Assembly: GCF_000300815.1 (NCBI RefSeq)
Contig: NZ_AMRX01000003.1
Coordinates: 124,001-188,000 of the forward strand
Direction: 5' to 3'
Origin: Gayadomonas joobiniege G7
GTDB lineage: Bacteria; Pseudomonadota; Gammaproteobacteria; Enterobacterales; Alteromonadaceae
DNA: 64,000 bases
In this document: positions 35,369 to 63,387 of the stretch, piece after piece
How positions within the stretch are numbered: position 1 is the stretch's first letter
How the letters are laid out: the number at the start of each line of letters is the position of its first letter
The notes under the pieces: generated by a model
What the model was told of the DNA's origin: nothing
Seen by the model: only the letters and a program-made list of their open reading frames with translations
Databases searched by the model: none
Program-made: the position numbers and the translations under genes

Positions 35369-35431
35369 GTATCTGTCTTCTCTATATCAGGCGTTGGCCG
35401 AAAATGGGTATATGGTACACGATTTTATTTT

Positions 35432-45108: not shown

Positions 45109-46029
45109 ATGTATAATTTATCAGTTGAATATAAAATTTTAGTGGTCGATGATGACAAATCGAACCGCCAGATTTTAACTTTGCTTTTAGCAGAATTAGG
45201 GCAGGTGATATTGGCTTCTACTGGGCAAGAGGCTATGCAGAAAGCTTGTCAGCAGCAACCAGATATTGTTATTTTGGATATTTTACTGCCTGATTTGAGT
45301 GGTTATGAGCTCATTAATGCATTAAAAAGCGAGGAGCGTACTCAGCATATCCCACTTATTGTTGTTTCGGCCAGTGACAGCTACGAAGCCGAAGAAAAAG
45401 CGCTCTTAAGCGGTGCGGTTGACTATATTAAAAAACCTTTTCATGCCTCTATCTTAAAAGCTAGAGTAAATGTAAATTTGAAAAACATTTCGCAGCGTCG
45501 AATGTTTGAAAAACTTACCCACCTAGATGCATTAACCGGTATTCCAAATTATGCCCAAATTGAAGAGTTATTTAATAAAATTCAGCATAAATGTGCAAAT
45601 GACGAAAAGTTGCTGCTTGCGGTAGTGGATATTGATGATCTTGCCCGATACAACAAACTCCAGGGGCGGCATGCTGGCGACCGGGTATTGCGTTTAGTCG
45701 CCCATGCATTGGCAGGTCGCTTGATGATGTTTAACGGTCATCTTGTGCGCTTGTATGACGCAACCTTTGCAATTATTATGGCTTGTTGTGATGAAAGCGA
45801 AGCCGAAAGTGTATTGTCTCAATTATTAAAAAGTGTGCGCTTATTAGAGTTACCTGTTGATGAAACAGGTAATCGAAGTGTTAGTGTAAGTGTTGGGGCG
45901 TGTTTGAGATCAAATACAGGGCAATCGACAGATGTCTTTCGGATGCTTAAATTTGCTCATACTTCATTGCAAGCGGCAAAAAATCAAGGCCGTAATTGTT
46001 TTGTTTTAGAGCAAACAAAAATCGATTAA
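45109..46029 (+). CDS. Response regulator with degenerate GGDEF domain
   Basis: Receiver domain at residues about 8-122 with an intact acidic pocket (VVDDD) and phosphoacceptor Asp57 (IVILDILLPDLSGYEL), so it is probably phosphorylated by a histidine kinase not present here. A GGDEF fold follows (about 140-300) with the LTGIPNYAQIEEL opening, but the GGDEF motif is YDATF (216-220), so cyclase activity is not expected. It may act as a c-di-GMP or protein-interaction effector. TATAAT at 45005-45010 could be its -10 box. Next to two active-looking c-di-GMP genes. Confidence 0.88.
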   Translation: MYNLSVEYKILVVDDDKSNRQILTLLLAELGQVILASTGQEAMQKACQQQPDIVILDILLPDLSGYELINALKSEERTQHIPLIVVSASDSYEAEEKALLSGAVDYIKKPFHASILKARVNVNLKNISQRRMFEKLTHLDALTGIPNYAQIEELFNKIQHKCANDEKLLLAVVDIDDLARYNKLQGRHAGDRVLRLVAHALAGRLMMFNGHLVRLYDATFAIIMACCDESEAESVLSQLLKSVRLLELPVDETGNRSVSVSVGACLRSNTGQSTDVFRMLKFAHTSLQAAKNQGRNCFVLEQTKID

Positions 46030-46109
46030 TAAGTTCTGAAGCTTGTTTTTTTTTGTTGATAAAGTAGTCTATTAGGCTGATTTTTAAGTATCCTGCTTAA
46101 GGTAGTATT

Positions 46110-47618
46110 TTGGCTGATAACTTTCGTTTACATGCGGTCCGCATCGCATTAATTTACCTGCTATTTTCGATAACTTGGATACTTTTTTCTGACCAAATGG
46201 TTGCCTTGTTATTAAAGGACTCGATATGGTTAACCTATGTGCATACATTAAAAGGTTGGATCTACGTTTCTATCTCTGCATTGCTTTTGTATCGCTTAAT
46301 TAGCAAAAGCATCGCGCAAGTTGAAGCGGTTTCCTTTAAAGACGAGTTAACCGGGTTAGCCAATCGAAATGCCTTTCGTCGTCAACTAGAAGTCTGCTGC
46401 GAGAAAAAAGAATATTTTTGTGTGAGTATTTTAGATATTGATAACTTTGCAGCCATCAATGATAGCAGTGGTCATGGTGCGGGTGATCGTCTGGTGCTGA
46501 ATTTAGCCCGTCTTTTTAACCAAGTATTGCCTGATGATTGGTATATTGCCCGTATCGGTGGTGATGAATTTGCTTTTATTTCACCGTCTGGTGTCGGTAA
46601 AAAAAAGGTAGTTAACAACTTAAACCAACTAAATACTGCGTTACAAACAGAACATTTAGACTTTGTACAATCCCACCTTGTCACAGCCAGTATTGGCGCT
46701 GCTGAGTATGGGCCGCATGGCACCAATGCAACGGATCTATTGCGTGCTGCTGACGCGGCCTTAATGCATATCAAGAATAATGGTAAAAATCAGTTATACT
46801 TTTTTCACAGAGAGTTAGAAGAAGAACTCACTGAATACTTACAGTTGGTTAAAGCGTTAAAACAAGCCTGTATTAAACAAACATTTTCACTGGTGTATCA
46901 ACCTCAATGGTCGTTAACAGAAAAGCGTTGGCATGGTGCTGAAGTGCTCATTCGCTGGCAGCATGAAACCTTAGGTTTTGTTTCACCTGAGCGTTTTATC
47001 CCAGTGGCCGAAAAAGAAGGTTTAATTGGTGACATTACTCGTTTGGTCGTGCAAAAAGCGTGCGCAGAACTACACAGGGTTGGTATTACATCGGCAGAGC
47101 TAAGCTATTTATCAATCAACTTTTCGCATAGCCTCATGAATCACAAAGCCGTAATCGCTGATATAGATAGCTGTTTACAGTCATCTTCTGAAGAGTTGCC
47201 GACTATTGTTATGGAGATTACGGAAACAGCTGCGATGCAGGCGCTCAATGATACTCAAGCATTGTTAGCAAAATGGCGGCAAGAAGGGGTGAAAACCTCT
47301 ATTGACGATTTTGGCACGGGTTATGCGTCATTGAGTCGAATTAAACAAATGCAGGTGGATGAAGTAAAAATTGATAAGAGTTTTATTCAAGGTTTGCCAA
47401 ATAACCAAAGCGATATCGCCATCACCAAAGCTGTGCTGGCGATGGCCGAGAGCATGGGCTTAAAAGTGGTTGCTGAAGGTGTTGAGACACTCCAACAGGC
47501 TCAATTTTTAAGCCGTGCAGGTTGTAACATTTTACAAGGCTACTTTTTAAGTCGACCTGTACCGATTGAACAACTCGCGCTTGTGATTGCCAGCCCTGCT
47601 CAGTTAGAGACTAGATAA
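46110..47618 (+). CDS. Membrane GGDEF-EAL protein
   Basis: Two transmembrane helices (about residues 10-30 and 48-65) anchor a GGDEF-EAL pair. GGDEF is intact at 150-154, but no RxxD I-site precedes it. The EAL domain reads EVL at 278-280 with the catalytic Glu kept, and N, MEITE, DDFGTGYASL, KIDKSF, AEGVE and LQGYFLSRP motifs are present, so phosphodiesterase activity is plausible; the net direction cannot be told. Start is TTG behind AAGGT. The next gene starts directly after the stop. Confidence 0.9.
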   Translation: MADNFRLHAVRIALIYLLFSITWILFSDQMVALLLKDSIWLTYVHTLKGWIYVSISALLLYRLISKSIAQVEAVSFKDELTGLANRNAFRRQLEVCCEKKEYFCVSILDIDNFAAINDSSGHGAGDRLVLNLARLFNQVLPDDWYIARIGGDEFAFISPSGVGKKKVVNNLNQLNTALQTEHLDFVQSHLVTASIGAAEYGPHGTNATDLLRAADAALMHIKNNGKNQLYFFHRELEEELTEYLQLVKALKQACIKQTFSLVYQPQWSLTEKRWHGAEVLIRWQHETLGFVSPERFIPVAEKEGLIGDITRLVVQKACAELHRVGITSAELSYLSINFSHSLMNHKAVIADIDSCLQSSSEELPTIVMEITETAAMQALNDTQALLAKWRQEGVKTSIDDFGTGYASLSRIKQMQVDEVKIDKSFIQGLPNNQSDIAITKAVLAMAESMGLKVVAEGVETLQQAQFLSRAGCNILQGYFLSRPVPIEQLALVIASPAQLETR

Positions 47619-48938
47619 ATGTATAAATATAAATTGTCAAAAGCGTTAGGTTTGTTAATCATTTTACTTTGTATTTTTGGGCTTGTGTATTTAACCGAAA
47701 GCATGGTTGGCCAAATAGAAAAAGATGCCGACAACCAGCAGAAGTTTAAAGTGACTATGCAGGTGGCAACCGTATCGGCCCGTTTAGAAGCGGCAATTTA
47801 TCAGGATGTTTATATCGCTGATAGTCTTGCAACTTTGTTAACTGTGCGTTCATTTGCCGATGAAGATGAGCTAGACCGATTAACCACAGAACTATTACGC
47901 AAATCTAACTATACCTCGCAAATTGGCGTTGCACCTAATGATGTGATCCGAAACATATTTCCGTTGGGGCGGGAACCTGAAATTATTGGTGTTAGATACA
48001 TAGACGTGCCCGATCAATGGGTGTCAGTGCGAGCTGCGCGTCAATCACAAAGCATTGTGATTAATGGTCCATTGAATTTATTAAATGGTAACGAAGGTAT
48101 TATTGCGCGCCTACCAGTATTTACCGATCCACCGTACAATTTAAATTATTGGGGAGTTGTCAGCGCTGTGATGCCAGTAAAACGTTTATTCGAAGATACC
48201 GGCGTTTATCAATTGCAACAACAAACAGAGCTCGCAATTAAACATGCCGATGGCAAAGTTTTTATGGGCGATAAAGGTGTATTCGACGAGCCCGATTATA
48301 GCGATTCAGTCCGTTTACCAGGCGGGCGATGGATCATTGCTGTCAAATTTAAACCTCACCCTGTGCAAAATATTATCTGGGTGCGCGGGGTGAGTTATTC
48401 AGCCTTATTTTGTTTAGTATTGGCAATTTTTCTTGTTTATCGCTCTTATCGGAAAATGCACCAGATGTCTTTGTACGATGAACTGACCGGGTTAGTCAAT
48501 CGCCGTTTTGTTATGCATCACCTCACTGAGCTGGTGGAGAGTAATAAACAGCAAAGTTTTTCAGTGATCAATTTAGATCTCAATAAGTTTAAATACGTGA
48601 ATGACAACTTCGGCCATGACGCTGGTGATGCTTTGTTAGTTGAGGTAGCTAAACGTTTTAAACACGCATTGCGAGCATCTGATGTAGTCGCAAGATTGGG
48701 CGGTGACGAATTTTTTATTATTTTGCCAAGGCAATCTGAGCTTGCCGATATAAATAAAATAATTGAGCAATTAGAGAAAAAAGTCACATCGCAGTCAATG
48801 CTTTATCAAGGGCATGAATTACCCATTTCGGTTGCCATGGGCGGTGCCTGTTACCCAGCCGATGCAAAAGATATTGAAAGTCTGTTAAAAGTTGCGGATC
48901 AGCGCATGTATCAGGATAAAGTTAATACAATTGATTAA
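47619..48938 (+). CDS. CHASE-domain membrane diguanylate cyclase
   Basis: N-terminal helix (about 8-28), a periplasmic CHASE sensor (about 40-235; SNYTSQIGVAPNDVIRNIFP, GPLNLLNGNEGIIARLPVF), a second helix (about 255-277) and a cytoplasmic GGDEF domain with GGDEF at 361-365 and I-site RASD. A complete, probably active cyclase responding to a small extracellular ligand. It is zero bases from the upstream GGDEF-EAL gene, so the two form an operon. Its end overlaps the end of the opposing AraC gene by four bases. Confidence 0.92.
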   Translation: MYKYKLSKALGLLIILLCIFGLVYLTESMVGQIEKDADNQQKFKVTMQVATVSARLEAAIYQDVYIADSLATLLTVRSFADEDELDRLTTELLRKSNYTSQIGVAPNDVIRNIFPLGREPEIIGVRYIDVPDQWVSVRAARQSQSIVINGPLNLLNGNEGIIARLPVFTDPPYNLNYWGVVSAVMPVKRLFEDTGVYQLQQQTELAIKHADGKVFMGDKGVFDEPDYSDSVRLPGGRWIIAVKFKPHPVQNIIWVRGVSYSALFCLVLAIFLVYRSYRKMHQMSLYDELTGLVNRRFVMHHLTELVESNKQQSFSVINLDLNKFKYVNDNFGHDAGDALLVEVAKRFKHALRASDVVARLGGDEFFIILPRQSELADINKIIEQLEKKVTSQSMLYQGHELPISVAMGGACYPADAKDIESLLKVADQRMYQDKVNTID

Positions 48939-49939
48939 AAAAAGGCGAGTCTAAGTTCGCTTGGCGTCGTTTTGAACCAGCGTTTGAATGCGCGGCGAAA
49001 GTTAGCTAAATCTGAATAACCTAATTGTTTCGCAAGCGCTTCTGTAGTTTGCGGTTGTTCGCTTAATAATTGTGCGACTCGGAGCCGATAGTAATTATCC
49101 AATAAGTTTTGATAGCGCGTATTATGTTGTTTAAGTTTACGTTTGAGTGTGGCTACACTCATTTTAAAGTGCTGTGCGGTCTCTTCTAACGTGAGTGGAC
49201 CATAACGATTTAATAAACGCTGAACTTGCGCCACAATAGTCGTTGGGGTCACTTGCTTGTTGGTTTGTTGCAACGCATATTGTCGAGTAAGAGGGCTATA
49301 ACAAAAACAAGGTTGTTGTAGTGCACTGAGCGGGATTTTAAACATATCAAAAGGCTGCGAAAAATTTATTTTTAAACCCAGGTTTTGTTCGTATTCTTGA
49401 ATTTGTTTGGGGCGTTGTTGGGTAAAATAATATTCGATGGGTAGGCGTTTTTGTGCAAGGTATTTTAAACCCGCGTGCAGGGCTGTAAAGCTGTAGTTTA
49501 AAATAAACTGATACAGTTCTTTGCAACCATAAATATCATAAAAATAAACAGTTAAATAACCTTGCCCGGTATGGCTATCACAGCCTAAAAACGGGCTGAT
49601 TTGAGTTTTAAAGCGTCCTAAAAGGGTTAAAAAGTCAGCACAGTTTTGGGCACTGGACAGCGCCTGACTTAAGTATCCGAAGTTGCCAGGCAAGATACGT
49701 TGACCCAATAAAAAGCTGGCGTCATGCCCAGGGATCAGTTGTTTAGCACGTGTTATTAATTGTAAAAATTGTTGGCTGGATATGAGATGGTTTGAGCCTG
49801 CCAAATCTTCTTTAAAAATGCCTGTACCCCTTAATAACTTATCGATAGATACACCCCGACTGACCGCTAAGTCGATTAAACTTGCGGGCAAGTGATGGGC
49901 TGCAATGACCTTATGGTCTGGCTGGATAAGCGATTTCAA
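48935..49939 (-). CDS. AraC-family transcription regulator
   Basis: Residues about 25-205 resemble the Arabinose_bd N-terminal domain (PF12625 type: LIPGHDASFLLGQRILPGNFGYL), and the C-terminus is the AraC double helix-turn-helix with TLEETAQHFKMSVATLKRKL and LGYSDLANFRRAFKRWFKTTP. 334 aa. The start overlaps the stop of the membrane GGDEF-like gene by four bases, so both are one transcript. Targets unknown. Confidence 0.9.
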   Translation of the reverse strand: MKSLIQPDHKVIAAHHLPASLIDLAVSRGVSIDKLLRGTGIFKEDLAGSNHLISSQQFLQLITRAKQLIPGHDASFLLGQRILPGNFGYLSQALSSAQNCADFLTLLGRFKTQISPFLGCDSHTGQGYLTVYFYDIYGCKELYQFILNYSFTALHAGLKYLAQKRLPIEYYFTQQRPKQIQEYEQNLGLKINFSQPFDMFKIPLSALQQPCFCYSPLTRQYALQQTNKQVTPTTIVAQVQRLLNRYGPLTLEETAQHFKMSVATLKRKLKQHNTRYQNLLDNYYRLRVAQLLSEQPQTTEALAKQLGYSDLANFRRAFKRWFKTTPSELRLAFF

Positions 49940-50826
49940 TTTGCGGCTTGTTCCAATTTTAAATTGACCTGTTTAATAGCGTCTTCAATATCGCTGCCCG
50001 CGAGCATATGCTGCCAAGCTGCAGACACTTTATGATAAACAGCTTTACCGGTGCGGCTTGGTTTGAACGCTAAATGATTAATGGCTGTTTGAATTTGCGT
50101 AATAATTTCACCGGTCTCTCGCTCACAGGTGTCTGGCAAAACTAAAATAAATCTATCACCCGCATACCGGCAGGCGAGATCCGCGTGGCGTAAGTTCATT
50201 ACAATAATATCAGCAACTTCCCGTAATAACCTGTCACCGTCAAGGTGACTATATTGGCGGTTAAATGCGGCAAAATTATTAATATCTAACATTGCAAGTG
50301 AATAAGGGGTACCCGCCCGATTGAGTTTGGCTAAATGCGTGCGCATATATTCAGCGCTATACAATTGAGTGACATAGTCAATTAGGCTATGTTCACGATA
50401 AAAAGCTTCTCTGCGGCTAAGCTGTTGATGCAACTTGACTTGCTCTTGGTGCCATAAATATAGCCCCCAACTCATCAATATCATGCCGATCGACGCAGGC
50501 AAAGACTCAACCCAATAGAGCCAAAAATCTTTATCTGGGTAGCTAAAAAATTCATCTAATAGATCTAACATGCAGCTCATTAAAAAACAGCTTAGTCCAA
50601 CAGCTAATAATAATGTAACCCGTCCATGAGGACGGCTAGCTAATAGAAAAAACAGCCATAACCCCGTCATTATTAACATCCCGCCTTCCCCAAGAATATC
50701 TAAATAATCTGAGTCTGACTGTGCTTTTAATGTGCCTTGGCTAAATACGATTAACAGCAAACTACAGCAGATCCCTATGATAAACATAAGTAATTTACTG
50801 TGGCCTTTTAACATTGAAAATTCCAT
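49936..50826 (-). CDS. Membrane protein with degenerate GGDEF domain
   Basis: Four hydrophobic segments (about residues 11-30, 46-64, 70-91, 107-123) are followed by a GGDEF-fold domain (about 150-290). The motif position reads AGDRF (222-226), so it lacks the residues for cyclase catalysis. It could be a sensor or partner for the AraC regulator, whose gene overlaps it by four bases. Start may be 50826 or the ATG four codons later (50814), which has GGAA upstream. Confidence 0.82.
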   Translation of the reverse strand: MEFSMLKGHSKLLMFIIGICCSLLLIVFSQGTLKAQSDSDYLDILGEGGMLIMTGLWLFFLLASRPHGRVTLLLAVGLSCFLMSCMLDLLDEFFSYPDKDFWLYWVESLPASIGMILMSWGLYLWHQEQVKLHQQLSRREAFYREHSLIDYVTQLYSAEYMRTHLAKLNRAGTPYSLAMLDINNFAAFNRQYSHLDGDRLLREVADIIVMNLRHADLACRYAGDRFILVLPDTCERETGEIITQIQTAINHLAFKPSRTGKAVYHKVSAAWQHMLAGSDIEDAIKQVNLKLEQAAN

Positions 50827-51138
50827 CTTGTCGCTCGCTCAATTTAAGTCGCGCGAACAGTAGCGAAAAATCTTCGAACTGCAAAGGGTTAATTTAGCTC
50901 AGTCAATTTCACCTAAAGGGGCTTAGTATGGGTTCTTGACTATAGGTTTATCCATTGGTTTTTTTTAACTAATTGATTTTTATTTATTTTATGTGAGGTT
51001 TTTTTGGCTCAAACCAGCCTGTTTATCACCCAATTTGGTCCCCCTAAAGGCCTGTTTTTAACTTCTGTCATAAATGTTTCATAGCAATTAAAAACACAAA
51101 ACGGTTAACTGCTGCCAACTTTTAAGGGAGTCAAACTT
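50827..51138. promoter_or_regulatory. 312-bp divergent intergenic region before the phytate genes
   Basis: AT-rich region between the membrane GGDEF-like gene and the TonB receptor gene. The only clear signal is the Pho box at 51065-51082. AGGGAG at 51124-51129 is the receptor's ribosome site. No gene or other repeat was seen. Confidence 0.6.
51065..51082 (+). promoter_or_regulatory. Pho box (PhoB-binding site)
   Basis: CTGTCAT (51065-51071), four-base AAAT spacer, GTTTCAT (51076-51082). The first repeat matches the E. coli Pho-box half-site perfectly and the second 5 of 7, with the right spacing. It lies 57 bp before the start of the TonB receptor gene that precedes the phytase. Confidence 0.75.
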
Positions 51139-53856
51139 ATGTTTATGCAAAGCAATTTTAAAAAAAATAAAGTGCTGTTGGCCTGTGCTGCAGCTTTAAC
51201 ATTCGCTTCTACTTCAGCCGATGCGGGTATTCTGTTAGGTAAAGTAACGGGGCCAGAACAAAAGCAATTGTTTAAAGGCGCTCAAATCAATATTACAGAA
51301 CTTGGCATTCGTACGACGACTGACGAGCGTGGCCAATACAGATTTAGTGATCTGCCCGCAGGTGAATATACATTGGAAGTGACTTATTTAGGTGAACAAC
51401 CGACGAATTATCGTATTCGCGTGCCAGAGACAGGTATTGAACAGAAAAACTTAGTGATCTCCTCGGCCAAAACAATCGAAAATCTAGTCGTTTATGCACA
51501 AAAAACAGGTCAAGCCAGTGCGTTAAACATGCAAAAAAATGCTGCTAGCATTAAATCGATTGTCTCATCAGATGCGATCGGTCAGTTTCCAGATCAAAAT
51601 GTGTCGGAAGCATTGCAGCGATTACCAGGATTATTTATTGAGCGAGATCAAGGGGAAGGTCGTTTTGTTGGCATCCGCGGGATCGACCCTAATTTGAACA
51701 ATGTCACTATTAATGGCTTAAACGTTCCATCACCTGAAGCTGGGGTGCGCTCTGTGGCGCTTGATGTGATCCCATCACAACTAGTAGGCAGTTTAGAAGT
51801 TTCTAAATCAGTCACGCCAGATATGGACGCAAGTGCGATCGGTGGTTCAATCGAAGTTAAAAGTTTAAGTGGTTTTGACCGACCTGATGGAAGCATGAGC
51901 GCGACAGTCGCCTTATCAAATAACCGCTTACGTGACGAAACCAGTCCTAAATTAGAAGCCAGTTATAGCAAAATATTTGATGATAGCTTAGCGCTGGCCG
52001 CAGCGGTTTCATACTCTGAACGAAAATTTGGTTCTGACAATTTAGAGTCAAACGGTGATGATGAGCTAGAGCAAAGGTTTTATGATATTACGCGAGAGCG
52101 TTTGGGTGCGGCGGTGAACTTAGATTTTCGTCCTGATTTTAATAACAGCTATTATATTCGAACTTTATTTAGTGAATTTAGCGATGATGAATTTAGGTTG
52201 TCAAATACTTTTGTTTTTGCTGACGAAACAGAAATAGAACGAGCCAGTAAAGATCGTAAAGAAACACAGCAAATAATGAGCTTAACAGCAGGTGCTGAGC
52301 ATATTGTCGACACTTGGACGCTAGAATACCAGCTTGGTTATTCAAAATCTAAAGAAGAAAATCCAAACGCCCTTTATTACACTTTAGTGGCGGAAGAATT
52401 GGACTTTAGCAGTGATATGCAAGGGAAAACCCCAGCGATTGAACAGTCTGATGAGGTCAGTGACTTTGCGAATTATGAGCTTGACGAAATTTCAGATGAG
52501 AGTGAAAAAGCGGAAGATGAAGAAACCAGCTTAAGTTTAGATTTATCTAAAAAGCTTGATATTCAGGGACAGCTAGTCGAGTTAAAGTTTGGTGGAAAAT
52601 ATCGTCAGCGTGAAAAAACAGCTATGGCGAATATTAAAATATTTGGTGGCGAGTTCGATAACTTTGACTTGCTTGCGCTGCAAGGCGGTCAACCCAATTG
52701 GTCAATAGGTCAATTTGGCTCGGCGTTAAAACGTGCTGAACTTAAAAATATGTTTGCCGATAATTTTGCCGACTTAGAGCTTGAAGAGAATGATTCGAAT
52801 GCAGAATCAGCCGGTGCCTCCTACTTGGTAGAAGAAGATATTTTTGCAGCTTATGCAATGGCAAGCTTTGATATTGAACAACTTCATGTGGTCGCTGGTG
52901 TTCGTTATGAAAAAACTGAATTCTCGACTCATGGTCAAAAGGTTGAAGTTGTTGCGATTGAAGATGAGTTGAACGATATTGATTCTGAAGAGGTTATTAC
53001 GACGGATTGGGCCTCAGAAAACGACTATGATAAATTTTTACCCAGTGTCAATCTTAGGTATGAGTTTAATGAAAACTTGATTGCTCGTGCCGCCTATACA
53101 CAAACACTCGCCAGACCTAAGTTTGAAGATGCGGCTGCATTTCAAATTATTGATAGCTCAAGTGAGCGTGATGAAGACACAGGTGAGCTAGTAACCGAAC
53201 GTGAAGCAGAAGTGGGTAATCCAAATCTAAAACCCTATTTTTCGGATAACTTCGACCTGACATTAGAGTATTACCCAGGCAATATTGGTATGTTTTCAGC
53301 GGGTTATTTTTATAAAAACATAGATAATTTTATCATTATTGCAGATGTGGCCGGCCGTGATGGTTGGCAGGATTACGACGAAGTTTTCCAGCCAATCAAT
53401 GGTGACAGCGCTGAATTACATGGACTTGAGTTGGCTTGGGTTAAATCTTTCCAGTCGGGCTTATTGTTAGCGGCGAATGCAACAATTACGGATTCAGAAG
53501 CGACAACATTTTTAGACGGTGAAACCTTTACTACCCAGTTGCCAAACCAATCAGATGAAACAGCTAATCTAACCATAGGTTATGAATCTGAGCAGTTTAG
53601 TATTCGTTTGACCGGCGTTTATAAAAGTCAAAACTTAGAAGAAATTGATGGGGATATGTTGCGCTATGAAGACGACCATACACAAATAGACTTGTCAGCC
53701 AAATACTACATTAATCAACAGATGCATGTGTATTTTAATGGGGTGAATTTAAATGATGAGCCACTTTACCATTATTTTGACCAATCCAATGTGAATGCCC
53801 AGTACGAAACTTACGGTCGCACTTTTGAGCTTGGTTTTAGTTGGACATCTTTCTAA
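51139..53856 (+). CDS. TonB-dependent receptor, probable inositol-phosphate/phytate transporter
   Basis: Outer-membrane active transporter. Signal peptide to about residue 30, then a carboxypeptidase-regulatory-like domain (about 32-112), a TonB-box-like ENLVVYA near 119, the plug (about 130-245; FPDQNVSEALQRLPGLFIER, VGIRGIDPNLNNVTINGL) and a 22-strand-type barrel ending in the terminal Phe (WTSF). 905 aa, complete. AGGGAG precedes the ATG. A phytase follows within 100 bp and a Pho box precedes it, so uptake of phytate or its breakdown products is inferred, not shown. Confidence 0.93.
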   Translation: MFMQSNFKKNKVLLACAAALTFASTSADAGILLGKVTGPEQKQLFKGAQINITELGIRTTTDERGQYRFSDLPAGEYTLEVTYLGEQPTNYRIRVPETGIEQKNLVISSAKTIENLVVYAQKTGQASALNMQKNAASIKSIVSSDAIGQFPDQNVSEALQRLPGLFIERDQGEGRFVGIRGIDPNLNNVTINGLNVPSPEAGVRSVALDVIPSQLVGSLEVSKSVTPDMDASAIGGSIEVKSLSGFDRPDGSMSATVALSNNRLRDETSPKLEASYSKIFDDSLALAAAVSYSERKFGSDNLESNGDDELEQRFYDITRERLGAAVNLDFRPDFNNSYYIRTLFSEFSDDEFRLSNTFVFADETEIERASKDRKETQQIMSLTAGAEHIVDTWTLEYQLGYSKSKEENPNALYYTLVAEELDFSSDMQGKTPAIEQSDEVSDFANYELDEISDESEKAEDEETSLSLDLSKKLDIQGQLVELKFGGKYRQREKTAMANIKIFGGEFDNFDLLALQGGQPNWSIGQFGSALKRAELKNMFADNFADLELEENDSNAESAGASYLVEEDIFAAYAMASFDIEQLHVVAGVRYEKTEFSTHGQKVEVVAIEDELNDIDSEEVITTDWASENDYDKFLPSVNLRYEFNENLIARAAYTQTLARPKFEDAAAFQIIDSSSERDEDTGELVTEREAEVGNPNLKPYFSDNFDLTLEYYPGNIGMFSAGYFYKNIDNFIIIADVAGRDGWQDYDEVFQPINGDSAELHGLELAWVKSFQSGLLLAANATITDSEATTFLDGETFTTQLPNQSDETANLTIGYESEQFSIRLTGVYKSQNLEEIDGDMLRYEDDHTQIDLSAKYYINQQMHVYFNGVNLNDEPLYHYFDQSNVNAQYETYGRTFELGFSWTSF

Positions 53857-53948
53857 AAACTTTTGTAAAACGTATATTCTGGCGGTCAGTACGCTTTGTC
53901 CGCCAGAAAGCGCTATATCCATTTTATCTATATCAGGTTTTATCATTA

Positions 53949-55883
53949 ATGAAGTTTATGCAAACAATGCTGGCGATCGTGGTTATCTTTATGGCTATCG
54001 CTTGCAGCCATTCCGTCTCCCAGGTAGACAATGCAGATCAACAAGAATCTTTAACACCAGTGACCCGCTTTGCGGTGGACAAATTAAATGGCAATCGGGT
54101 GATTCAAATCACCAAACAGCAATGGTTGGCCAACAGTGAAAATTTGGGTTTATTTGTATTTGATGCAGATCAAAATATCCAATTAAAACACAGCGGCAAT
54201 TATGAATCGCTTGATGTGCGGGCAAACGGTACAAAACAATGGTTTGTCAGCAGTATCGAAAAAGAGCAAGGGCGTTTTGAGCTATGGCTTTTAGATCTTC
54301 AAGCAGAACAGCTTAAGCCTTTATTCGAAATAGCGTTGGCCGACAGTGTCATCAACAATCAATGTCTGTATCAAGATCCGGCAAGCGGTGATTTACACGT
54401 CTTTTTATTGACGGCTGAGCATCAGGTAGCACAATATTTAATTGATCAAACGCAAGGCAAAGTTCACTTGATCCGTCAGTTTTCATCACCGCCGGGTAGC
54501 GAAGCATGCCGAGTAGACGACGCGGGTGGTTTTTTGTACATAGTCGAAGAAACGGTCGGTGTATGGCAATATCCGGTTGATCCAGAAGCCGAATTGGTAA
54601 GAGAGCCTATTGCAATTAAATACCCTTTTGGTGCGATTACCGGCGAGATTAAAGATCTACAAAGCTTACCAGACGGCAGTCTTTTAGTGGCGTTACCAGA
54701 ACAAGGACAAATTCACCACTATCAACAACCTTTAGGGCGGGGCAAAGTGAAAACCTATTCGGTTGCCGACAGCGTGATCGAAAGTGTTGCTGCTTTTTTT
54801 AATCAAGGACAGTGGACTCTGAGCTTGTATGACGATAAACAGGGACGATATATTAGTAGCTCAATCAACTTATTGCTTGGTAAAAGAGCAGAAAAAGCGC
54901 TAAACATTGCTATATTAACAGCGGATATGCAAACCGATCCAGTAGCACGTTTTGCCGACGCGGCGGACGATCCCGAGATTTGGTTTAATAGTGCTAATCC
55001 GGCTCAAAGTTTGATATTAGCAACAGACAAAACTTATGGTTTAAAGGGATACGACTTATCGGGCAAAGAAGTCGCTGATATTGCCTCGGGACGAATTAAC
55101 AACATAGATATTTTGCGCCAGCTCGAATGGCAAGGGCAGCGCTGGGATTTTGCCGCCGCCAGTAACCGCACCGATAATAGCATTGCTTTGTATCGTATCG
55201 CGCAAGATGGTCAGCTCACAGAGTTACCTGGGTTGCCAACCAGCTTGCCAGATGTATATGGTTTGTGCACCTATCAATCGCCATTAAATGGCGCCGCTTA
55301 TGTGTTTATCAATGACGAATCGGGTCGCTTTCAACAATATCAGTTGGATTTATCAAACGAAAAAATTACAGCTAATTTAGTTAGAGAGTTTGCGGTTTCA
55401 TCTCAGCCGGAAGGTTGTGTCGCCGATACAGGAACACAAACCCTTTATTTAGGTGAAGAAAATAAAGCGATCTGGTCTATCAGTGCTGAGCCAGATGGAA
55501 AAGCACTGAGCTTGTTTTATCAAGTTGACAATGAAGTTTTGTTTGCCGATGTTGAGGGTTTGTCTATTTACAAATCACAGTCAGCTTTGAGTCCAGATTA
55601 TTTAGTGGTTTCAAGCCAAGGCAACAATAGTTATTTAGTGTTTGATTTAAGCACAGGTCAGTTGGCCGCTCGGTTTAAAATTGGTGCTGATGCGACTAAT
55701 GGCATAGATGGAACCTCTGAAACTGATGGTTTGGCGGTGATATCTGAGCCTTTAGGAGATGCCTATCCGCAAGGTGCACTCGTTGTGCAAGATGGACGGA
55801 ATGTCATGCCAGTGCAACCGCAAAACTTTAAGTTGCTTGATTGGCGCAAAGTGGCTGCTTTAATCGAGCAACAAAAACCATAA
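53949..55883 (+). CDS. Dual-domain beta-propeller phytase lipoprotein
   Basis: Secreted hydrolase releasing phosphate from phytate. Start ATG 53949 gives 644 aa with a signal peptide and lipobox (MAIAC), so it is probably outer-membrane anchored; the frame is open further upstream into the receptor gene. The C-terminal domain (about 325-644) is a canonical calcium-dependent beta-propeller phytase: DAADDPEIWFN near residue 337, NDESGRFQQYQL, SQPEGCVADTG, DVEGLSIY, VVSSQGNNSYLVFD, SETDGLAV, YPQGALVVQDGRN. The N-terminal half (about 60-320) repeats these motifs in degenerate form (SEACRVDDAGGFLYIVEE), as in known dual-domain phytases. Confidence 0.93.
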   Translation: MKFMQTMLAIVVIFMAIACSHSVSQVDNADQQESLTPVTRFAVDKLNGNRVIQITKQQWLANSENLGLFVFDADQNIQLKHSGNYESLDVRANGTKQWFVSSIEKEQGRFELWLLDLQAEQLKPLFEIALADSVINNQCLYQDPASGDLHVFLLTAEHQVAQYLIDQTQGKVHLIRQFSSPPGSEACRVDDAGGFLYIVEETVGVWQYPVDPEAELVREPIAIKYPFGAITGEIKDLQSLPDGSLLVALPEQGQIHHYQQPLGRGKVKTYSVADSVIESVAAFFNQGQWTLSLYDDKQGRYISSSINLLLGKRAEKALNIAILTADMQTDPVARFADAADDPEIWFNSANPAQSLILATDKTYGLKGYDLSGKEVADIASGRINNIDILRQLEWQGQRWDFAAASNRTDNSIALYRIAQDGQLTELPGLPTSLPDVYGLCTYQSPLNGAAYVFINDESGRFQQYQLDLSNEKITANLVREFAVSSQPEGCVADTGTQTLYLGEENKAIWSISAEPDGKALSLFYQVDNEVLFADVEGLSIYKSQSALSPDYLVVSSQGNNSYLVFDLSTGQLAARFKIGADATNGIDGTSETDGLAVISEPLGDAYPQGALVVQDGRNVMPVQPQNFKLLDWRKVAALIEQQKP

Positions 55884-55911
55884 GCTGCGTATTCACGGCA
55901 AAACAATCGAT

Positions 55912-55960
55912 TGGTAGCCAGGTGGTAAAAGTGCTGGCTGCCATTTTACCGGGAACCTGG
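55912..55960 (+). terminator. Two mutually exclusive hairpins after the phytase gene
   Basis: TGGTAGCCAG (55912-55921) pairs with CTGGCTGCCA (55934-55943), followed by TTTT. Alternatively CCAGGTGGTAAAA (55918-55930) pairs with TTTTACC and ACCTGG (55944-55960) with a four-base bulge. The first looks like a weak terminator. Confidence 0.5.
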
Positions 55961-56029
55961 TTGCGAGCATCAATAAAACAAATAATCAATACAAATTAAC
56001 CCAGATTGAGAGAAATCCATCTGCAGTCT

Positions 56030-56060
56030 CTGTATAGTTGCTACAACAGCGACTATACAG
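56030..56060. promoter_or_regulatory. 13-bp inverted repeat just before ybaK
   Basis: CTGTATAGTTGCT (56030-56042) and AGCGACTATACAG (56048-56060) differ from perfect symmetry at one G-T position and leave a five-base loop. It ends 13 bases before the ybaK ATG, so it could be an operator or a translation-controlling hairpin. Confidence 0.55.
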
Positions 56061-56073
56061 CGGATAACAGGAT

Positions 56074-56538
56074 ATGACACCAGCCGTTAATTTATTAAAA
56101 AAACTCAAAATTGATTTTAACCTGCATGAATACATACATGATGAAAAAGCTACCAGTTACGGCTTAGAAGCCGCTGAAAAGTTAGCAGTGCCAGCGCAAA
56201 AAGTATTTAAAACACTCTTAGTTTGTAACGAAAAACAACAGCTGTTCGTAGCTATTGTGCCTGTTTGCCAACAATTAAACTTAAAACTTGCCGCAAAAGC
56301 AGCCGGTTGTAAAAAAATGCAAATGGCTGATAAGGCGATCGCCGAAAAAACAACTGGATACATCCTTGGGGGCGTAAGCCCGTTTGCGCAGAAAAAAAAG
56401 CTAGCGACGCTAGTTGATATCAGCGCTATGGCTCACAATAGTATTTTTGTTAGTGGCGGTAAAAGAGGGCTAGAAATTGAACTTGCGCCACAAAATTTAA
56501 TAAATGTTTTAAATGCTAAAGCGGTTGCTTTGTGTTGA
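56074..56538 (+). CDS. ybaK: Cys-tRNA(Pro) deacylase YbaK
   Basis: Trans-editing enzyme that hydrolyses misacylated Cys-tRNA(Pro). ATSYGLEAAEKLAVPAQKVFKTLL with the conserved Lys, GGVSPFAQKKKLATLVD and SGGKRGLEIELAP are family motifs. 154 aa, full length. AGGAT precedes the ATG. Confidence 0.93.
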   Translation: MTPAVNLLKKLKIDFNLHEYIHDEKATSYGLEAAEKLAVPAQKVFKTLLVCNEKQQLFVAIVPVCQQLNLKLAAKAAGCKKMQMADKAIAEKTTGYILGGVSPFAQKKKLATLVDISAMAHNSIFVSGGKRGLEIELAPQNLINVLNAKAVALC

Positions 56539-56603
56539 GTCATCCAATTGTTAGATAAATACGTTATAGTATATCAATTATAACAAATACAAGGATCGGC
56601 TTA

Positions 56604-57212
56604 ATGTACCAAAAGTATGCAGCACTCATTTTTGATATGGACGGCACCTTGGTTGATAGTGGTCAGTTACATCAAAATGCTTGGATAAAAACATTTAACC
56701 GCTACTCAATTCCAGTGGATTATGCGCTTATGCGCTCACTTGCTGGCGTGCCAACTAAACAAACAATAGAAATAGTCGCAGATCATTTTGAAATAGATTT
56801 AGCTGTCTCTAGTGATGAGATGAACTATTTCAAAGAAGCGATTGTCCGTGCAACCTTATTAGATTATGTGCAAGCGACACCTCTACTTGAGGTAGTAAAA
56901 GAGTACCATGGTAAAAAGCCTATGGCGGTTGGCACTGGCGCTTATACAGACGAAGCAGAGCTGATTTTAAAAGCCTGTGGTTTATCCCCCTATTTTGACT
57001 ATGTGGTAGGCGCTGATCAGGTTACTCAGCCAAAACCAGCGCCAGACACTTATTTACACTGTGCTAAGCTTTTAAAAGTAAACCCTGCTGACTGTGTTGT
57101 ATTTGAAGATGCACCTGCTGGCATGCAAGCCGCTCGCCGTGCAGGAATGGAAGTTGTAGATGTTTTGCAGACACTGAATATTAAAAACGATTATTTTTTG
57201 GACAATAAATAA
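56604..57212 (+). CDS. HAD-family sugar phosphatase (YqaB-like)
   Basis: Phosphatase of the beta-phosphoglucomutase-like HAD group. Motif I is FDMDGTLVDSGQLH, motif II is in the VGTGAYTDEAE region, and motifs III/IV are KPAPDTYLHCAKLL and VVFEDAPAGMQAARRAGM. It resembles E. coli YqaB, which acts on fructose-1-phosphate and 6-phosphogluconate. 202 aa. Overlaps the next gene by one base. Confidence 0.88.
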   Translation: MYQKYAALIFDMDGTLVDSGQLHQNAWIKTFNRYSIPVDYALMRSLAGVPTKQTIEIVADHFEIDLAVSSDEMNYFKEAIVRATLLDYVQATPLLEVVKEYHGKKPMAVGTGAYTDEAELILKACGLSPYFDYVVGADQVTQPKPAPDTYLHCAKLLKVNPADCVVFEDAPAGMQAARRAGMEVVDVLQTLNIKNDYFLDNK

Positions 57213-58635: not shown

Positions 58636-59775
58636 TTAAATGAGCATTTCTGCAGGGGTTGTAACTTCCTCCATAGTCACTGTTCTGGGTAGACTTTTAC
58701 CATCCTGAGTAAATAAGTGTGCTTTTTCTGCCAAAATTTTTAAATTTAGGGCGCTACCTTCTTGAACTTTAATTGAGCCAGGAATACTAAATTCCAAGCG
58801 CTCATCGCTGCCATCAAGCGTCGCATGTATATAGGTTAAATGGCCTTGGTATTGCACGTTTTTGATCCAGACCAGTGGGTCGTCATCTGAGCCGACAAAA
58901 ATACTTTCTGCTCGAAAGCCCAGCGTCAGAAGACTACCAGGTGAAATATTGCTAGCGTCCACTCTAATTAAGATTAAAAAACCGTTTAAACTTATTTGTG
59001 CATGCTGTCCTTGTTGTTTGATAAAGGTGACTTTCAGCAGGTTGATTTGGTGTTGTCCGAATGCTTCAGCGGCAAATTGATTGCAAGGGAATTCGTATAG
59101 AGCCAAGGGGGTGTCGACTTGAATGATTTCTCCTTCTCTCATTAACACCACTCGGTCAGCTAGCGCCATGACTTCATCCGCTTCATGGGTAACAAAAATA
59201 CTTGTACATTGATTAAGTTTGTGGTGCCTTTTAACCTCTAACAACATTTGCTGTTTTAGCTTCTGGTCTAGGTTGGAAAAAGGTTCATCTAGCAAAAAAA
59301 CCCCAGGTTTTTTTATCAAGCCTCGCGCCATAGCGACTCTTTGCTGTTCGCCAGTACTCAACTGAGTAGGGTATCGCTCTAACTTATCTTCTATTTGCAA
59401 TTGTTTCGAAATTTGGATCACTTGACGGGCTATTTCGCTCTCATTTTCTCCCCTTACTTGCAGTGGAAACGCGATATTATTAAAAACGTTCATATGTTGA
59501 TATAGCGCGTAATCTTGAAAAATCATGCTGATATTTCTCTGCGATGTCGGTGTTTGGGAGATATCTTGATTATTAAAATATAAGCAGCCTGAATCGGCCT
59601 CAACTAAACCCGCAATAATATTGAGAAGGGTTGACTTACCACAACCAGATGGGCCAAGAATACATAAAAACTCGCCTGAATCGACAGTCAAAGAAATATT
59701 GTTTAATAGCATTTTTCGACTACTATCTGCCGCTGGATGTTTTTTATTGATTTGTTTCAAGCTGACAATTGGCAT
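58636..59775 (-). CDS. ABC importer ATPase, MalK/UgpC type
   Basis: Energising subunit of a CUT1-type sugar importer. Walker A GPSGCGKST, signature LSTGEQQRVAMARG (Thr in place of the first Gly after Ser), Walker B VFLLDEPFSNLD, the switch His in VTHEADEV, and a TOBE-like regulatory C-terminus (about 240-379). 379 aa. Starts one base after the MalG-like permease stop. Confidence 0.92.
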   Translation of the reverse strand: MPIVSLKQINKKHPAADSSRKMLLNNISLTVDSGEFLCILGPSGCGKSTLLNIIAGLVEADSGCLYFNNQDISQTPTSQRNISMIFQDYALYQHMNVFNNIAFPLQVRGENESEIARQVIQISKQLQIEDKLERYPTQLSTGEQQRVAMARGLIKKPGVFLLDEPFSNLDQKLKQQMLLEVKRHHKLNQCTSIFVTHEADEVMALADRVVLMREGEIIQVDTPLALYEFPCNQFAAEAFGQHQINLLKVTFIKQQGQHAQISLNGFLILIRVDASNISPGSLLTLGFRAESIFVGSDDDPLVWIKNVQYQGHLTYIHATLDGSDERLEFSIPGSIKVQEGSALNLKILAEKAHLFTQDGKSLPRTVTMEEVTTPAEMLI

Positions 59776-59776
59776 C

Positions 59777-61093
59777 TTAACTAACCTTTTTCATTAAGCG
59801 ATCAAAGTGCCACTGTTGGTTCATTGTTTGAAACAAGCTACGGCGACAGAAAATAAATAATAACAACATCGGAAACACAGAAATAAAACAAGCAGCTAGC
59901 AAGCTCCCCCAGCTGGTCGACATACCGACAGAGTTGCGTAAAGAAAGTAACCCTAGTGGAAGGGTAAAAGTACTTTCAGGCGCGGTTAACAATATAAAAG
60001 GCCAGAAAAAATCATTCCAAGCACTTTGCACTGTTAATACGGCAACGCTGATTAATGCGGGTTTAGCTTGCGGCAGATAGATGTAACGAAAGATTTGCCA
60101 ATGAGTTGCACCATCCACTCTGGCGGCAAACAATAGGTTTTTGTCCAGTCCATCAAAAAAATGTTTCATTAACAAAACTTGGGCAGACAGTATGCACATT
60201 AAGATAAGTGCCCAAGGAGAGTTTAGTAAGTCAACACTGCTAAACAACATATAATTTGAGATAAATATAGCTTGTGGGGGGATAGCCAAGCTGAATACTA
60301 GCAGAAATATCAGAGGTCGCCGCCCTGAAAATGAATATTTAGATAATAAATAGCCAGCAACGACCGCAATAACCATGCTCAAAATTAATTTACAGATGAC
60401 AATAAATATAGAGTTGTATAACCAGCTGAAAATCAAACTGTGGCCGAGCTCTGGGGCATAAGTTGACTGATTTAAGTCGCGGTAATTATGAAATAGATAG
60501 TTGAATAAGCCAGGGGAGATATTACCCCAGCTAAGTAGTTGGCCGACCTGCTCTATATGGTCCGGTGGCAGGCTATAACTTAAGGCTTCAACGCCATCTG
60601 GTAATTTAATTTGCAGCGGTAGAGTCGCAAAAAATTGCTCACTGATATTTTTTAACTGGATGACAACCTGAAAGGTGTCTTGACTGAGCTGGTCCATTTC
60701 TAGGTGAATTTGGGTTGCTTCGTGTGAGGCAAAATTTGAGCCAGGGCGTTGCAATTGTTGTAACCAATTAGGCGTATTAACCTTGACGCCTATATTGTTT
60801 AGGTCTGGTTTGGTAAGACTACTAATTTGCATTTTAAATTTAATGGAGTGATTTGGCGTAAAGCCACCGGAAAAAGGTGAAAAAGCGCCTTGGTAGCCAG
60901 TGCTAATACTCTGGCCTAAATAACTTAATTTTAAGTAGTTGCTATCTGCTTGTAAGCGACCGGAAGTAGTTCTGACTTCACTTAAACTAGCATACAAGGC
61001 ATAGGTAAAAGTCCCTAATGTCATCAGGGCTATCGCCAAAATGCAGATGAACAAATTAAAGCCACTGGGTTTGATAGTTTTAACGGCTAGCAT
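59777..61093 (-). CDS. MalG-like ABC permease with large extracytoplasmic insertion
   Basis: Second membrane subunit of the importer. After one N-terminal helix (about residues 13-35) there is a soluble loop of about 185 residues, rich in beta-strand-like sequence (FKMQISSLTKPDLNNIGVKV, FQVVIQLKNISEQFFATLPL), before the remaining helices. The BPD_transp_1 part contains the EAA loop AARVDGATHWQIFRYIYLPQAKP. MalG-type permeases are usually 275-300 aa; this is 438 aa. It overlaps the MalF-like gene by 14 bases. Confidence 0.9.
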   Translation of the reverse strand: MLAVKTIKPSGFNLFICILAIALMTLGTFTYALYASLSEVRTTSGRLQADSNYLKLSYLGQSISTGYQGAFSPFSGGFTPNHSIKFKMQISSLTKPDLNNIGVKVNTPNWLQQLQRPGSNFASHEATQIHLEMDQLSQDTFQVVIQLKNISEQFFATLPLQIKLPDGVEALSYSLPPDHIEQVGQLLSWGNISPGLFNYLFHNYRDLNQSTYAPELGHSLIFSWLYNSIFIVICKLILSMVIAVVAGYLLSKYSFSGRRPLIFLLVFSLAIPPQAIFISNYMLFSSVDLLNSPWALILMCILSAQVLLMKHFFDGLDKNLLFAARVDGATHWQIFRYIYLPQAKPALISVAVLTVQSAWNDFFWPFILLTAPESTFTLPLGLLSLRNSVGMSTSWGSLLAACFISVFPMLLLFIFCRRSLFQTMNQQWHFDRLMKKVS

Positions 61094-62132
61094 ATAAACT
61101 CCGATGTTTAAGCAAACGCTTAAGCGGCCAAACGATCAGCGTTAATATAAACAAAAACATAACAACAGCGGCAGCGCTTGCTATGCCTGCGCTAGGGTTC
61201 TGATTTGCTGGAAAAACATGCTGGTAAATATATTGTGCTAACGTGAGCTTAGACTCGATAGGCACAGCGCTGCCTAAAAAAAACACTTGCTCAAAGGTTT
61301 GCATCCCACTGATCAGGCTTAAAATAAGCAAAAGTAGTAGCAGTGGCTCAAGCAAAGGTAAGGTTATCCATTGGTGCATTTGAGCTCGGCTTGCTCCATC
61401 ACAGGCTGCCGCTTGGTATAAGTTGGATGGGATGCTATTGAGTGCGCAAAACAATAATAAACAATACATGGGCACGTTTAACAAGGAGTTCTGGATAATT
61501 ATCAACCAAAGCGGTGGACTTAGCCCTAACCAGCTTTGATAGCTACTTAATAAAGGGTTGCTAGTGAACTTCATACTCGCAGCAGGAATATATTGATATC
61601 CTAAAATGAGTAGTATTATGACTATGCTCCACCGGACAACAGCTTTAAATTTTTTAATCGGTAGTTGAAAGACAACATATAGAATACTAGCCGTCGAAAT
61701 AAACCAAATAGCAAACTCTTTGGGCGCTTGCAAAAAAGTATAAACTGCTTCTGATTGAATCAAAAATAAACAAATAACAGTTAAAGCAGCACTTGAGAAT
61801 AAAGCTGGAAGGTACAAAATTTCTCGGTAAAAGTGATGGCTATGCATATGCTTATGCAAACTCAGCGCAATAAATAAAGCGGCGCTTATTTGGATGATAC
61901 TGCCGATAGTGCTCATCAGTAGGGTATTTATACTTGCTTGCCAAAATACCTCATCAAACATAAGTTGGGCAAAATTATTTAAGCCAACCCAGTTAGGCGC
62001 ATTAAAGAGATTATAACTTTGTAAACTGTACCATATGGTTTTGCCAAACGCGTAGACGATAAACAAACTTAAACTCGCTACAAGTGGCGCTAGCAGTAGC
62101 CAACATAATAAATTGAAATTAAGGCTGCGCAT
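61080..62132 (-). CDS. MalF-like ABC permease
   Basis: First membrane subunit of the importer, 350 aa. About eight hydrophobic segments are seen, two more than the usual six, with the extra ones around residues 140-190. The EAA loop is present but reads YQAAACDGASRAQMHQWITLPLLEP. Overlaps the binding protein gene by 14 bases. Confidence 0.88.
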   Translation of the reverse strand: MRSLNFNLLCWLLLAPLVASLSLFIVYAFGKTIWYSLQSYNLFNAPNWVGLNNFAQLMFDEVFWQASINTLLMSTIGSIIQISAALFIALSLHKHMHSHHFYREILYLPALFSSAALTVICLFLIQSEAVYTFLQAPKEFAIWFISTASILYVVFQLPIKKFKAVVRWSIVIILLILGYQYIPAASMKFTSNPLLSSYQSWLGLSPPLWLIIIQNSLLNVPMYCLLLFCALNSIPSNLYQAAACDGASRAQMHQWITLPLLEPLLLLLLILSLISGMQTFEQVFFLGSAVPIESKLTLAQYIYQHVFPANQNPSAGIASAAAVVMFLFILTLIVWPLKRLLKHRSLYASR

Positions 62133-63387
62133 CTACATAAACCTCCTTGTACATAGCCAAGTAAGCTTTTTGAGCCTCTTGGATAAGTTGTTCAAGGGGA
62201 CGGTTACTTAACATGGCCGATCTAAGGGCTTTATTGATTGGCGCCATCCAAGCACTGCCATACCGTTCAAATTGATAAGGATATAATTGACTCGTCGCTA
62301 AAATGCGGGCGGTAGATTGAAATAGCTGGTTTTCACTCGCTGTGTTGCCGGCTTTAGCCTTCATGATGACTTGATTGCTAGCGGGGAGTGCGACGGCATT
62401 GTTCCAAATAAAGTGCTGTACTTTTTGGCTAGTCAAAATTTGGATAAGTTGCAGGCTTTTATCAAGTTGTGCTGAATTTCTATTCACAGCCCAAGCTACC
62501 GCAAAGATCAAATTGCCGGGTTTCTTTTCTGCAGACGAGACGGGTGGGGCTACGGTGGCAAAATTTAAATTTGGAGCATGAATTTGAATATGCTGATTAA
62601 TCCAAGTACCCTCAACAGAGACGGCAGACAAACCAGAAGTTAGGCAGCCACTGCTCCAAGTATGGCCAACGTTGTTAGGCACAGCGGCAATGCCTTTACG
62701 GACTAAACCGACATAAAAACGGAATGCAGTGATAAAGTTTTCATCTAACTGGGTTTGCCCATTTTCAGTAAATGGCTGCCACCCAGCTGATAGGGCAAAG
62801 GGGGCAAATGATGCATAGTCAGGTGTCAGACATATAGAAATTTGCCCTTTAGGCTTTAAGTGAGCCGCTAGCTTTGCTAGTTTATCCTCTAAACTAGCAA
62901 AGGTTTCTGAATCCGTTAGAAAGGGGACTTTTGCAGCGCGAAACAAGTCCTTATTAAATTGCATTGAGATAGTATTATAGTCTTTAACTATGCCAAAGGT
63001 TTCACCTCGAATAGTAAATAATTGGTTCAATTCAGGATAAATTCTGTTGACCAGTTCGGGCGCACCATAGCTAAAATTATATAATAGATCGAGTTTGGCC
63101 AGTCGATGAATATCTGACACATCAACGTAAAAAACATCTGGGGCTTTGCCAGATGAAAAACGATTCAGTAAAAATGAATTATGGCTGCTTTCTAGCGCTG
63201 TGTAAGCAACTTGAATGTTCGCTTGGGTGAGCTCAGTTGCGACCACGTCAGAGAGAATTTTTTGGATGACTAAGCGGTCAAAGCCACCCCATCCAGAGAG
63301 AACGACAGTTTCAGCCGAAGCTTTTTGGAGCGTGAACAAAAAAATTAAAGGCAAACAAATAGTCAGCGAAAATAAGCTCTTAAACAT
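62119..63387 (-). CDS. Extracellular solute-binding protein of the ABC importer
   Basis: Family 1 (CUT1) binding protein that delivers the ligand to the importer. Signal peptide of about 25 residues ending ASA, then the type II periplasmic-binding fold: FSSGKAPDVFYVDVSDIHRLAKL, GIVKDYNTISMQFNKDLFRAA, WSSGCLTSGLSAVSVEGTW, GNLIFAVAWAVNRNSAQ. 422 aa. The ATG lies only four bases after an 11-bp hairpin arm and has no recognisable Shine-Dalgarno site. The ligand is probably an oligosaccharide, but this cannot be fixed. Confidence 0.88.
   Translation of the reverse strand: MFKSLFSLTICLPLIFLFTLQKASAETVVLSGWGGFDRLVIQKILSDVVATELTQANIQVAYTALESSHNSFLLNRFSSGKAPDVFYVDVSDIHRLAKLDLLYNFSYGAPELVNRIYPELNQLFTIRGETFGIVKDYNTISMQFNKDLFRAAKVPFLTDSETFASLEDKLAKLAAHLKPKGQISICLTPDYASFAPFALSAGWQPFTENGQTQLDENFITAFRFYVGLVRKGIAAVPNNVGHTWSSGCLTSGLSAVSVEGTWINQHIQIHAPNLNFATVAPPVSSAEKKPGNLIFAVAWAVNRNSAQLDKSLQLIQILTSQKVQHFIWNNAVALPASNQVIMKAKAGNTASENQLFQSTARILATSQLYPYQFERYGSAWMAPINKALRSAMLSNRPLEQLIQEAQKAYLAMYKEVYVDAQP

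Follow-up and report, generated by a model that had tools for sequence, protein, structure and literature searches.

The most constant features of the locus described here are a divergent pair of regulatory genes, encoding a membrane GGDEF-like protein and an AraC-type regulator, and the operator-like motif that it shares with the facing transcription unit. The locus lies in a 64,000-nucleotide window of the Gayadomonas joobiniege G7 genome (contig NZ_AMRX01000003.1, positions 124,001 to 188,000), and all coordinates given below are those of the window. The facing unit comprises a TonB-dependent receptor gene, with a Pho-box-like site upstream, and a beta-propeller phytase gene. We propose, with a probability of about 60%, that the whole is a phosphoester-scavenging module under the control of both PhoB and the AraC protein, in which the GGDEF-like protein acts as a nucleotide receptor. 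The conserved layout suggests that phosphorus scavenging at this locus answers to more than phosphate starvation; it supports control by PhoB and by the AraC protein, and makes a third input, through the GGDEF-like protein, probable.

The receptor, the phytase and associated phosphatases

An earlier note on this DNA had bounded the locus at 51065–55883. The Pho box, the receptor and the phytase were found where it placed them, but the conserved divergent pair at 48935–50826 falls outside these limits. The receptor gene (51139–53856, forward strand, 905 aa) scores 538.9 bits against TIGR01782, for a curated cut-off of 310, and its product contains a Plug domain (PF07715), a barrel (PF00593) and a carboxypeptidase-regulatory-like N-terminus. 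The mechanical ORF of the phytase begins at 53841; translation of the lipoprotein more likely starts with the ATG codon of position 53949 (MKFMQTMLAIVVIFMAIAC), which gives a gene at 53949–55883 (forward strand, 644 aa) encoding a probable lipoprotein. This ATG is 92 bp from the receptor stop codon, within the distance of about 100 bp previously claimed. No terminator was found in the receptor–phytase gap, which is weak evidence since the same scan averages 4.9 in shuffled sequences, and no RNA element was detected in 50000–57000 at gathering thresholds.

The complete phytase domain covers residues 315–640 (PF02333, 282 bits; PDB 1poo, E 1.7e-60). Because a second, weak phytase match (27.4 bits) lies in the N-terminal half (54114–54605), the protein is read as having two domains; a search on dual-domain phytases returned nothing. 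In one more distant relative (L301), the phytase is read as two adjacent ORFs of 303 and 236 aa. The canonical phytase motifs noted earlier are borne out by the comparison with 1poo: of 13 positions in the active-site region, 10 are identical, one is changed from V to I and two differ. The 10 identical positions are also invariant across the 61 rows compared, which represent 60 loci with the G. joobiniege phytase entered twice. The two that differ are, in what we take to be the active-site numbering of 1poo, K179 and E180; they are replaced by E and S (55317–55322), are variable in relatives too, and their replacement may alter phosphate binding.

A phytase was detected in 64 of 196 genomes of the family at E 0.001, with 60 scoring above 150 bits. 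Sixty-three phytase loci were fetched, and the receptor lies upstream on the same strand in 60 of them, so that the receptor–phytase pair is conserved, as proposed; the remaining loci (L093–L095) are phytase matches below 90 bits without a same-strand receptor. The receptors of several Pseudoalteromonas loci show only weak similarity to that of G. joobiniege. In many relatives a further gene is inserted between receptor and phytase; its product is a type 5, tartrate-resistant purple acid phosphatase (1qhw, E 7.1e-47). This arrangement is present in all seven other genomes of the genus. The G. joobiniege genome yielded only two poor matches to this enzyme (23.1 and 21.7 bits) and none in 53857–53948; therefore, the gene has probably been lost from this genome.

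The receptor–phytase pairing itself is of a known kind, since both the pairing and its response to phosphate are in print (PMC8115612, PMC3400609 and PMC11208175, each seen in part). In Flavobacterium johnsoniae, the phytase Fjoh_1367 and the adjoining TonB receptor Fjoh_1368 are both induced by phosphate depletion, a transcript-level result that belongs to that species; it is of a different phylum, and the text available names no AraC/GGDEF-like pair, operator or purple acid phosphatase gene there (PMC8115612). A receptor gene also adjoins a phytase gene in Citromicrobium bathyomarinum, from which uptake of phytic acid, the proposed substrate, was predicted; no regulation is described in the accessible part of that report (PMC3400609). 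In Caulobacter, a phytase and several TonB receptors belong to the PhoB regulon, and the sections consulted describe no local AraC/GGDEF-like pair (PMC11208175).

Occurrence of the divergent regulator pair

The AraC-type regulator gene (48935–49939, reverse strand, 334 aa, TTG start as listed) encodes an N-terminal Arabinose_bd domain (73.6 bits) and a C-terminal HTH_18 domain (52.9 bits, cut-off 33.6). Its ORF overlaps by 4 bp that of the GGDEF-like protein (49936–50826, reverse strand, 296 aa; GGDEF domain, 90.4 bits), which has the motif AGDRF and an I-site RxxD. When the neighbours of the 63 phytase loci were clustered, a divergent membrane GGDEF-like gene was observed upstream of the receptor at 57 loci and an AraC-type gene at 55. 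A full-length profile distinguishes this GGDEF-like protein (314 bits or more) from other GGDEF proteins (139.2 bits or less). With it, the protein was found in at least 59 of the 60 family genomes that carry the phytase, versus at least 12 of the 136 others (Fisher 9.6e-37, uncorrected for descent); G026 is the one phytase genome without the regulator pair. All genome counts for this protein are lower bounds, because a limited number of first-look candidates was scored in each genome (at most 11 in the family search, 5 in the order search and 6 in the class search). Order-wide, at least 39 of 394 genomes match the profile at E 1e-45, including 21 from other families; class-wide, at least 4 of 369 match, including two from other orders.

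Among 281 loci found through the GGDEF-like protein, 80 were kept for locus reading. The AraC gene adjoins the GGDEF-like gene in all 80, and a receptor with phytase and/or metallophosphatase does so in 76: receptor, purple acid phosphatase and phytase in 38, receptor and phytase in 27, receptor and another metallophosphatase in 10, and receptor and an acid phosphatase at a contig end in one. In the four loci without receptor or phosphatase, either the pair has moved (two loci) or the contig ends (two loci). Twelve genomes of the family have the regulator pair and lack the phytase module; in 11 of them the receptor is followed by a metallophosphatase, and the twelfth is interrupted by a contig end. 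The constant part would thus be the regulator pair, the receptor and some phosphatase. Phytate fits as a substrate, but it need not be the only one, given the metallophosphatase in these 11 genomes. Since the pair marks loci at which a metallophosphatase stands for the phytase, it can be used to flag phosphoester-uptake loci devoid of phytase.

More distant relatives gave a similar picture. Of 23 such loci 20 were read, and 18 have a receptor with a phytase or metallophosphatase; of the other two, one is cut after the receptor and one has a phytase without a receptor. In this tally, the AraC neighbour of one locus (L306) was not recognised by the automated reading.

We could not find the conserved regulator pair and its promoter layout in the literature searched. 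That search, which also covered degenerate GGDEF receptors, gave no account of the pair at a phytase locus, with subscription literature mostly outside its reach. One paper that contains both terms (PMC6355987) deals, in the part seen, with unrelated genes.

Genes downstream of the module (58636–63387) resemble by eye a sugar-type ABC transporter, with an ATPase, two permeases and a binding protein; they are absent from the conserved neighbourhood of phytase loci.

Promoter elements between the divergent units

K-mer counts and alignment of the regions between the divergent units revealed the motif GGTCAnnTTRGCTCA. Its core is present in 80 of 81 regions and is essentially one-way (118 forward copies, one reverse). 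Allowing two mismatches, the motif was found in 97 of 101 regions, compared with 83 of 101 for a Pho-box-like site in either direction, and in 16 of 20 more distant loci, which had not been used to derive it. It is concentrated at the module: of 212 matches in 1,437 kb, 145 lie within 420 bp upstream of the GGDEF-like gene, and of 17 perfect copies in eight genomes, 11 are at the module, the reversed control giving 8. In the two genomes where the regulator pair has moved (G006 and G007), the motif precedes the relocated genes (L213, L212), and two copies of it precede the receptor operon, which is now at a distance (L016, L017); these genomes are natural cases for the study of control in trans.

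The motif search of intergenic regions placed two forward-strand copies in G. joobiniege, at 50887–50901 (GGTTAATTTAGCTCA) and at 50997–51011 (GGTTTTTTTGGCTCA, two mismatches to the consensus), 110 nt apart. Two copies are present in 63 of 80 loci, and in 49 of these 63 they are 97–100 nt apart. The GGTCA and GCTCA halves are separated by 10 bp, the distance expected for the two helix-turn-helix contacts of one AraC monomer. The motif would be the operator of the AraC protein.

The receptor-facing Pho-box-like site (CTGTCAT-AAAT-GTTTCAT, 51065–51082, forward strand) lies 56 nt upstream of the receptor start codon (ATG, 51139). Its form is as the earlier note had described it, with a perfect first half, 5/7 matches in the second and a four-base spacer. 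The box alone was rejected as evidence: 25 sites in the 3.9-Mb genome are equal or better (two mismatches or fewer out of 14), which by our own arithmetic is about the random expectation, and with up to three mismatches there are 299 sites versus 178 for the reversed pattern. Its significance therefore rests on conservation. To score sites, a matrix was built from the pst-region boxes of eight congeners; the G. joobiniege pst-region box sits before a 322-aa ORF that follows the pst genes. The receptor box (16.8 bits) is the best of three sites reaching 13 bits in the window. The other two Pho-box-like sites are at 35362–35379 (14.7 bits, one mismatch out of 14) and 32676–32693 (14.6 bits).

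Conservation was then assessed at orthologous loci, the survey that the earlier note had called for. Compared with dinucleotide shuffles, the receptor upstream regions have a p of 0.05 or less in 49 of 60 loci, with 37 at the floor value of 0.01 (60 of the 63 loci were taken, omitting L093–L095). Of 76 intergenic regions that separate the GGDEF-like gene from the receptor side, 57 contain a site of at least 12 bits, versus 3 of 239 control regions drawn from elsewhere in these loci; the controls are somewhat shorter (median 232 versus 312 nt). Four of the 80 loci had no acceptable intergenic region. Of 30 other receptors of the genus that were scanned, out of 351 receptor matches, 2 reach this score. 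Among the 101 regions, sites of at least 10 bits face the receptor in 66, the opposite direction in 35 and both in 18 (83 in either). PhoB is present in all eight genomes of the genus (TIGR02154, over cut-off). The earlier claim of control by phosphate starvation thus holds in that boxes are conserved at orthologous promoters, but only four of the eight receptor promoters of the genus reach 10 bits (G. joobiniege, G002, G003 and G007; the other four are below), and PhoB probably does not control the receptor–phytase operon alone.

The motif and the boxes are arranged at preferred distances. From motif to receptor-facing box, the distance is 67–69 or 78–80 nt in 41 of 55 regions; in G. joobiniege it is 68 nt, counted from the start of the second motif copy. 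To the opposite-facing box it is 20 nt in 23 of 25 regions. The 78–80-nt class spans 11 genus labels, the 67–69-nt class is mainly composed of Alteromonas and Glaciecola, and Pseudoalteromonas has a different spacing, 156 nt in nine loci. The 68/79-nt split may only reflect the choice of best-scoring units, since the two top-scoring units were used even where a box may be longer. All motif and spacing counts include close relatives, and the tests are uncorrected for shared descent.

The GGDEF-like protein and the control of the module

Active diguanylate cyclases are expected to carry GG[D/E]EF with Glu at the fourth position, and none of the 71 family sequences does: the fourth residue is R in 58, C in 9, H in 3 and Q in one. 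At the position that we take to be equivalent to PleD K332, none of the 71 has Lys. Presumed I-site and ligand positions, also assigned by equivalence to PleD, are retained: the R and D of RxxD in 71/71, the Asp at the third motif position in 71/71, the guanine-contacting Asn in 67/71 and the guanine-contacting Asp in 68/71. Given this loss of cyclase residues and retention of the I-site, the protein is read as a receptor and not as an enzyme, most likely for c-di-GMP or another guanine nucleotide. Among the more distant loci, 16 of the 19 proteins read match RxxD (the Arg is missing from L313, and L312 and L315 are ambiguous), so that sensing of c-di-GMP may not be general; none of the 16 matched proteins has Glu at the fourth position. 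An AlphaFold2 model (mean pLDDT 86.5, pTM 0.53) shows four main N-terminal helices, of which the fourth is 46 residues long, followed by the GGDEF domain, and its best structural matches are SiaD, DgcZ, DgcB and PleD. The membrane domain has invariant charged residues.

Published cases bear on the reading of such motifs. VCA0965, with AGDEF, is active, and a change to AGDAF abolishes its activity (PMC3974145, seen in part). PelD, like the protein studied here, is a membrane protein whose dead GGDEF domain keeps RxxD, and it binds c-di-GMP at that site; according to the part of the source seen, it acts post-translationally on exopolysaccharide synthesis, whereas the partner of the GGDEF-like protein is a transcription regulator, and nucleotide binding is here only predicted (PMC7112168). 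In Caulobacter, phosphate starvation strongly induces a canonical diguanylate cyclase, and the authors state, in the text available, that a link with c-di-GMP is not yet established (PMC10723716).

In the mechanism that we propose, the module would obtain phosphorus from organic phosphate esters, of which phytate would be the main one here. The TonB receptor and the phytase lipoprotein would come from one transcription unit (with the purple acid phosphatase between them in many relatives), and the membrane GGDEF-like protein and its AraC-type partner from the divergent unit. Upon phosphate starvation PhoB would act on the Pho box, while the AraC protein, on the one-way motif copies between the units, would co-activate both; the GGDEF-like protein, with c-di-GMP or another guanine nucleotide, would adjust the AraC protein. 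Binding by PhoB and by the AraC protein, co-activation, nucleotide sensing and phytate import are what we infer from gene order, co-occurrence, motif conservation and spacing, and residue loss and retention, all read from the genomes. The locus would then be a compact case of phosphorus scavenging tied to a GGDEF-derived receptor, with a named operator and promoter spacing. A stricter form, which we advance tentatively and hold to be possible but not probable, is an AND gate: the PhoB starvation signal would be combined with the state of c-di-GMP or another guanine nucleotide, through a dead-GGDEF membrane receptor gating an AraC activator, on a fixed promoter grammar of one-way operators and Pho boxes, for phytate or phosphoester scavenging in Alteromonadaceae and allied gammaproteobacteria.

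The locus might instead be a plain member of the PhoB regulon, PhoB alone switching the operon and the GGDEF-like/AraC pair being a neighbour with other targets. Conserved Pho-box-like sites agree with this, as do the phosphate response of known receptor–phytase pairs (PMC8115612) and the Caulobacter PhoB regulon (PMC11208175), so far as these sources were seen. We consider it quite unlikely, because the motif is retained upstream of the receptor operon in the genomes with a relocated pair, is more constant than the box (97 versus 83 of 101) and because regulator pair and phosphatase module co-occur almost exclusively.

Alternatively, what the pair senses could be a signal from the envelope or a substrate such as an inositol phosphate, perceived by the N-terminal domain of the AraC protein or by the membrane domain of the GGDEF-like protein, the GGDEF domain being a structural remnant that senses no nucleotide. 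The Arabinose_bd type of that N-terminal domain, the invariant charged residues in the membrane domain and the three of 19 more distant relatives with unmatched RxxD are in line with such a signal; it is rendered rather unlikely by the I-site R and D, present in 71/71, and by the nearly constant guanine-contacting residues (67 and 68 of 71). Phytate is a metal chelator, and TonB receptors often serve iron uptake, so that the receptor might import metal–phytate complexes for their metal, with phosphate release being secondary. Pho-box-like sites at the promoter, and the fact that the partner replacing the phytase is a metallophosphatase, make this very improbable.

Three further GGDEF-type genes were observed in a row at 45109–48938, ending against the AraC gene: a response regulator–GGDEF gene, a GGDEF gene with an EAL domain recognised by eye, and a CHASE–GGDEF gene, the first and third being assigned by Pfam.
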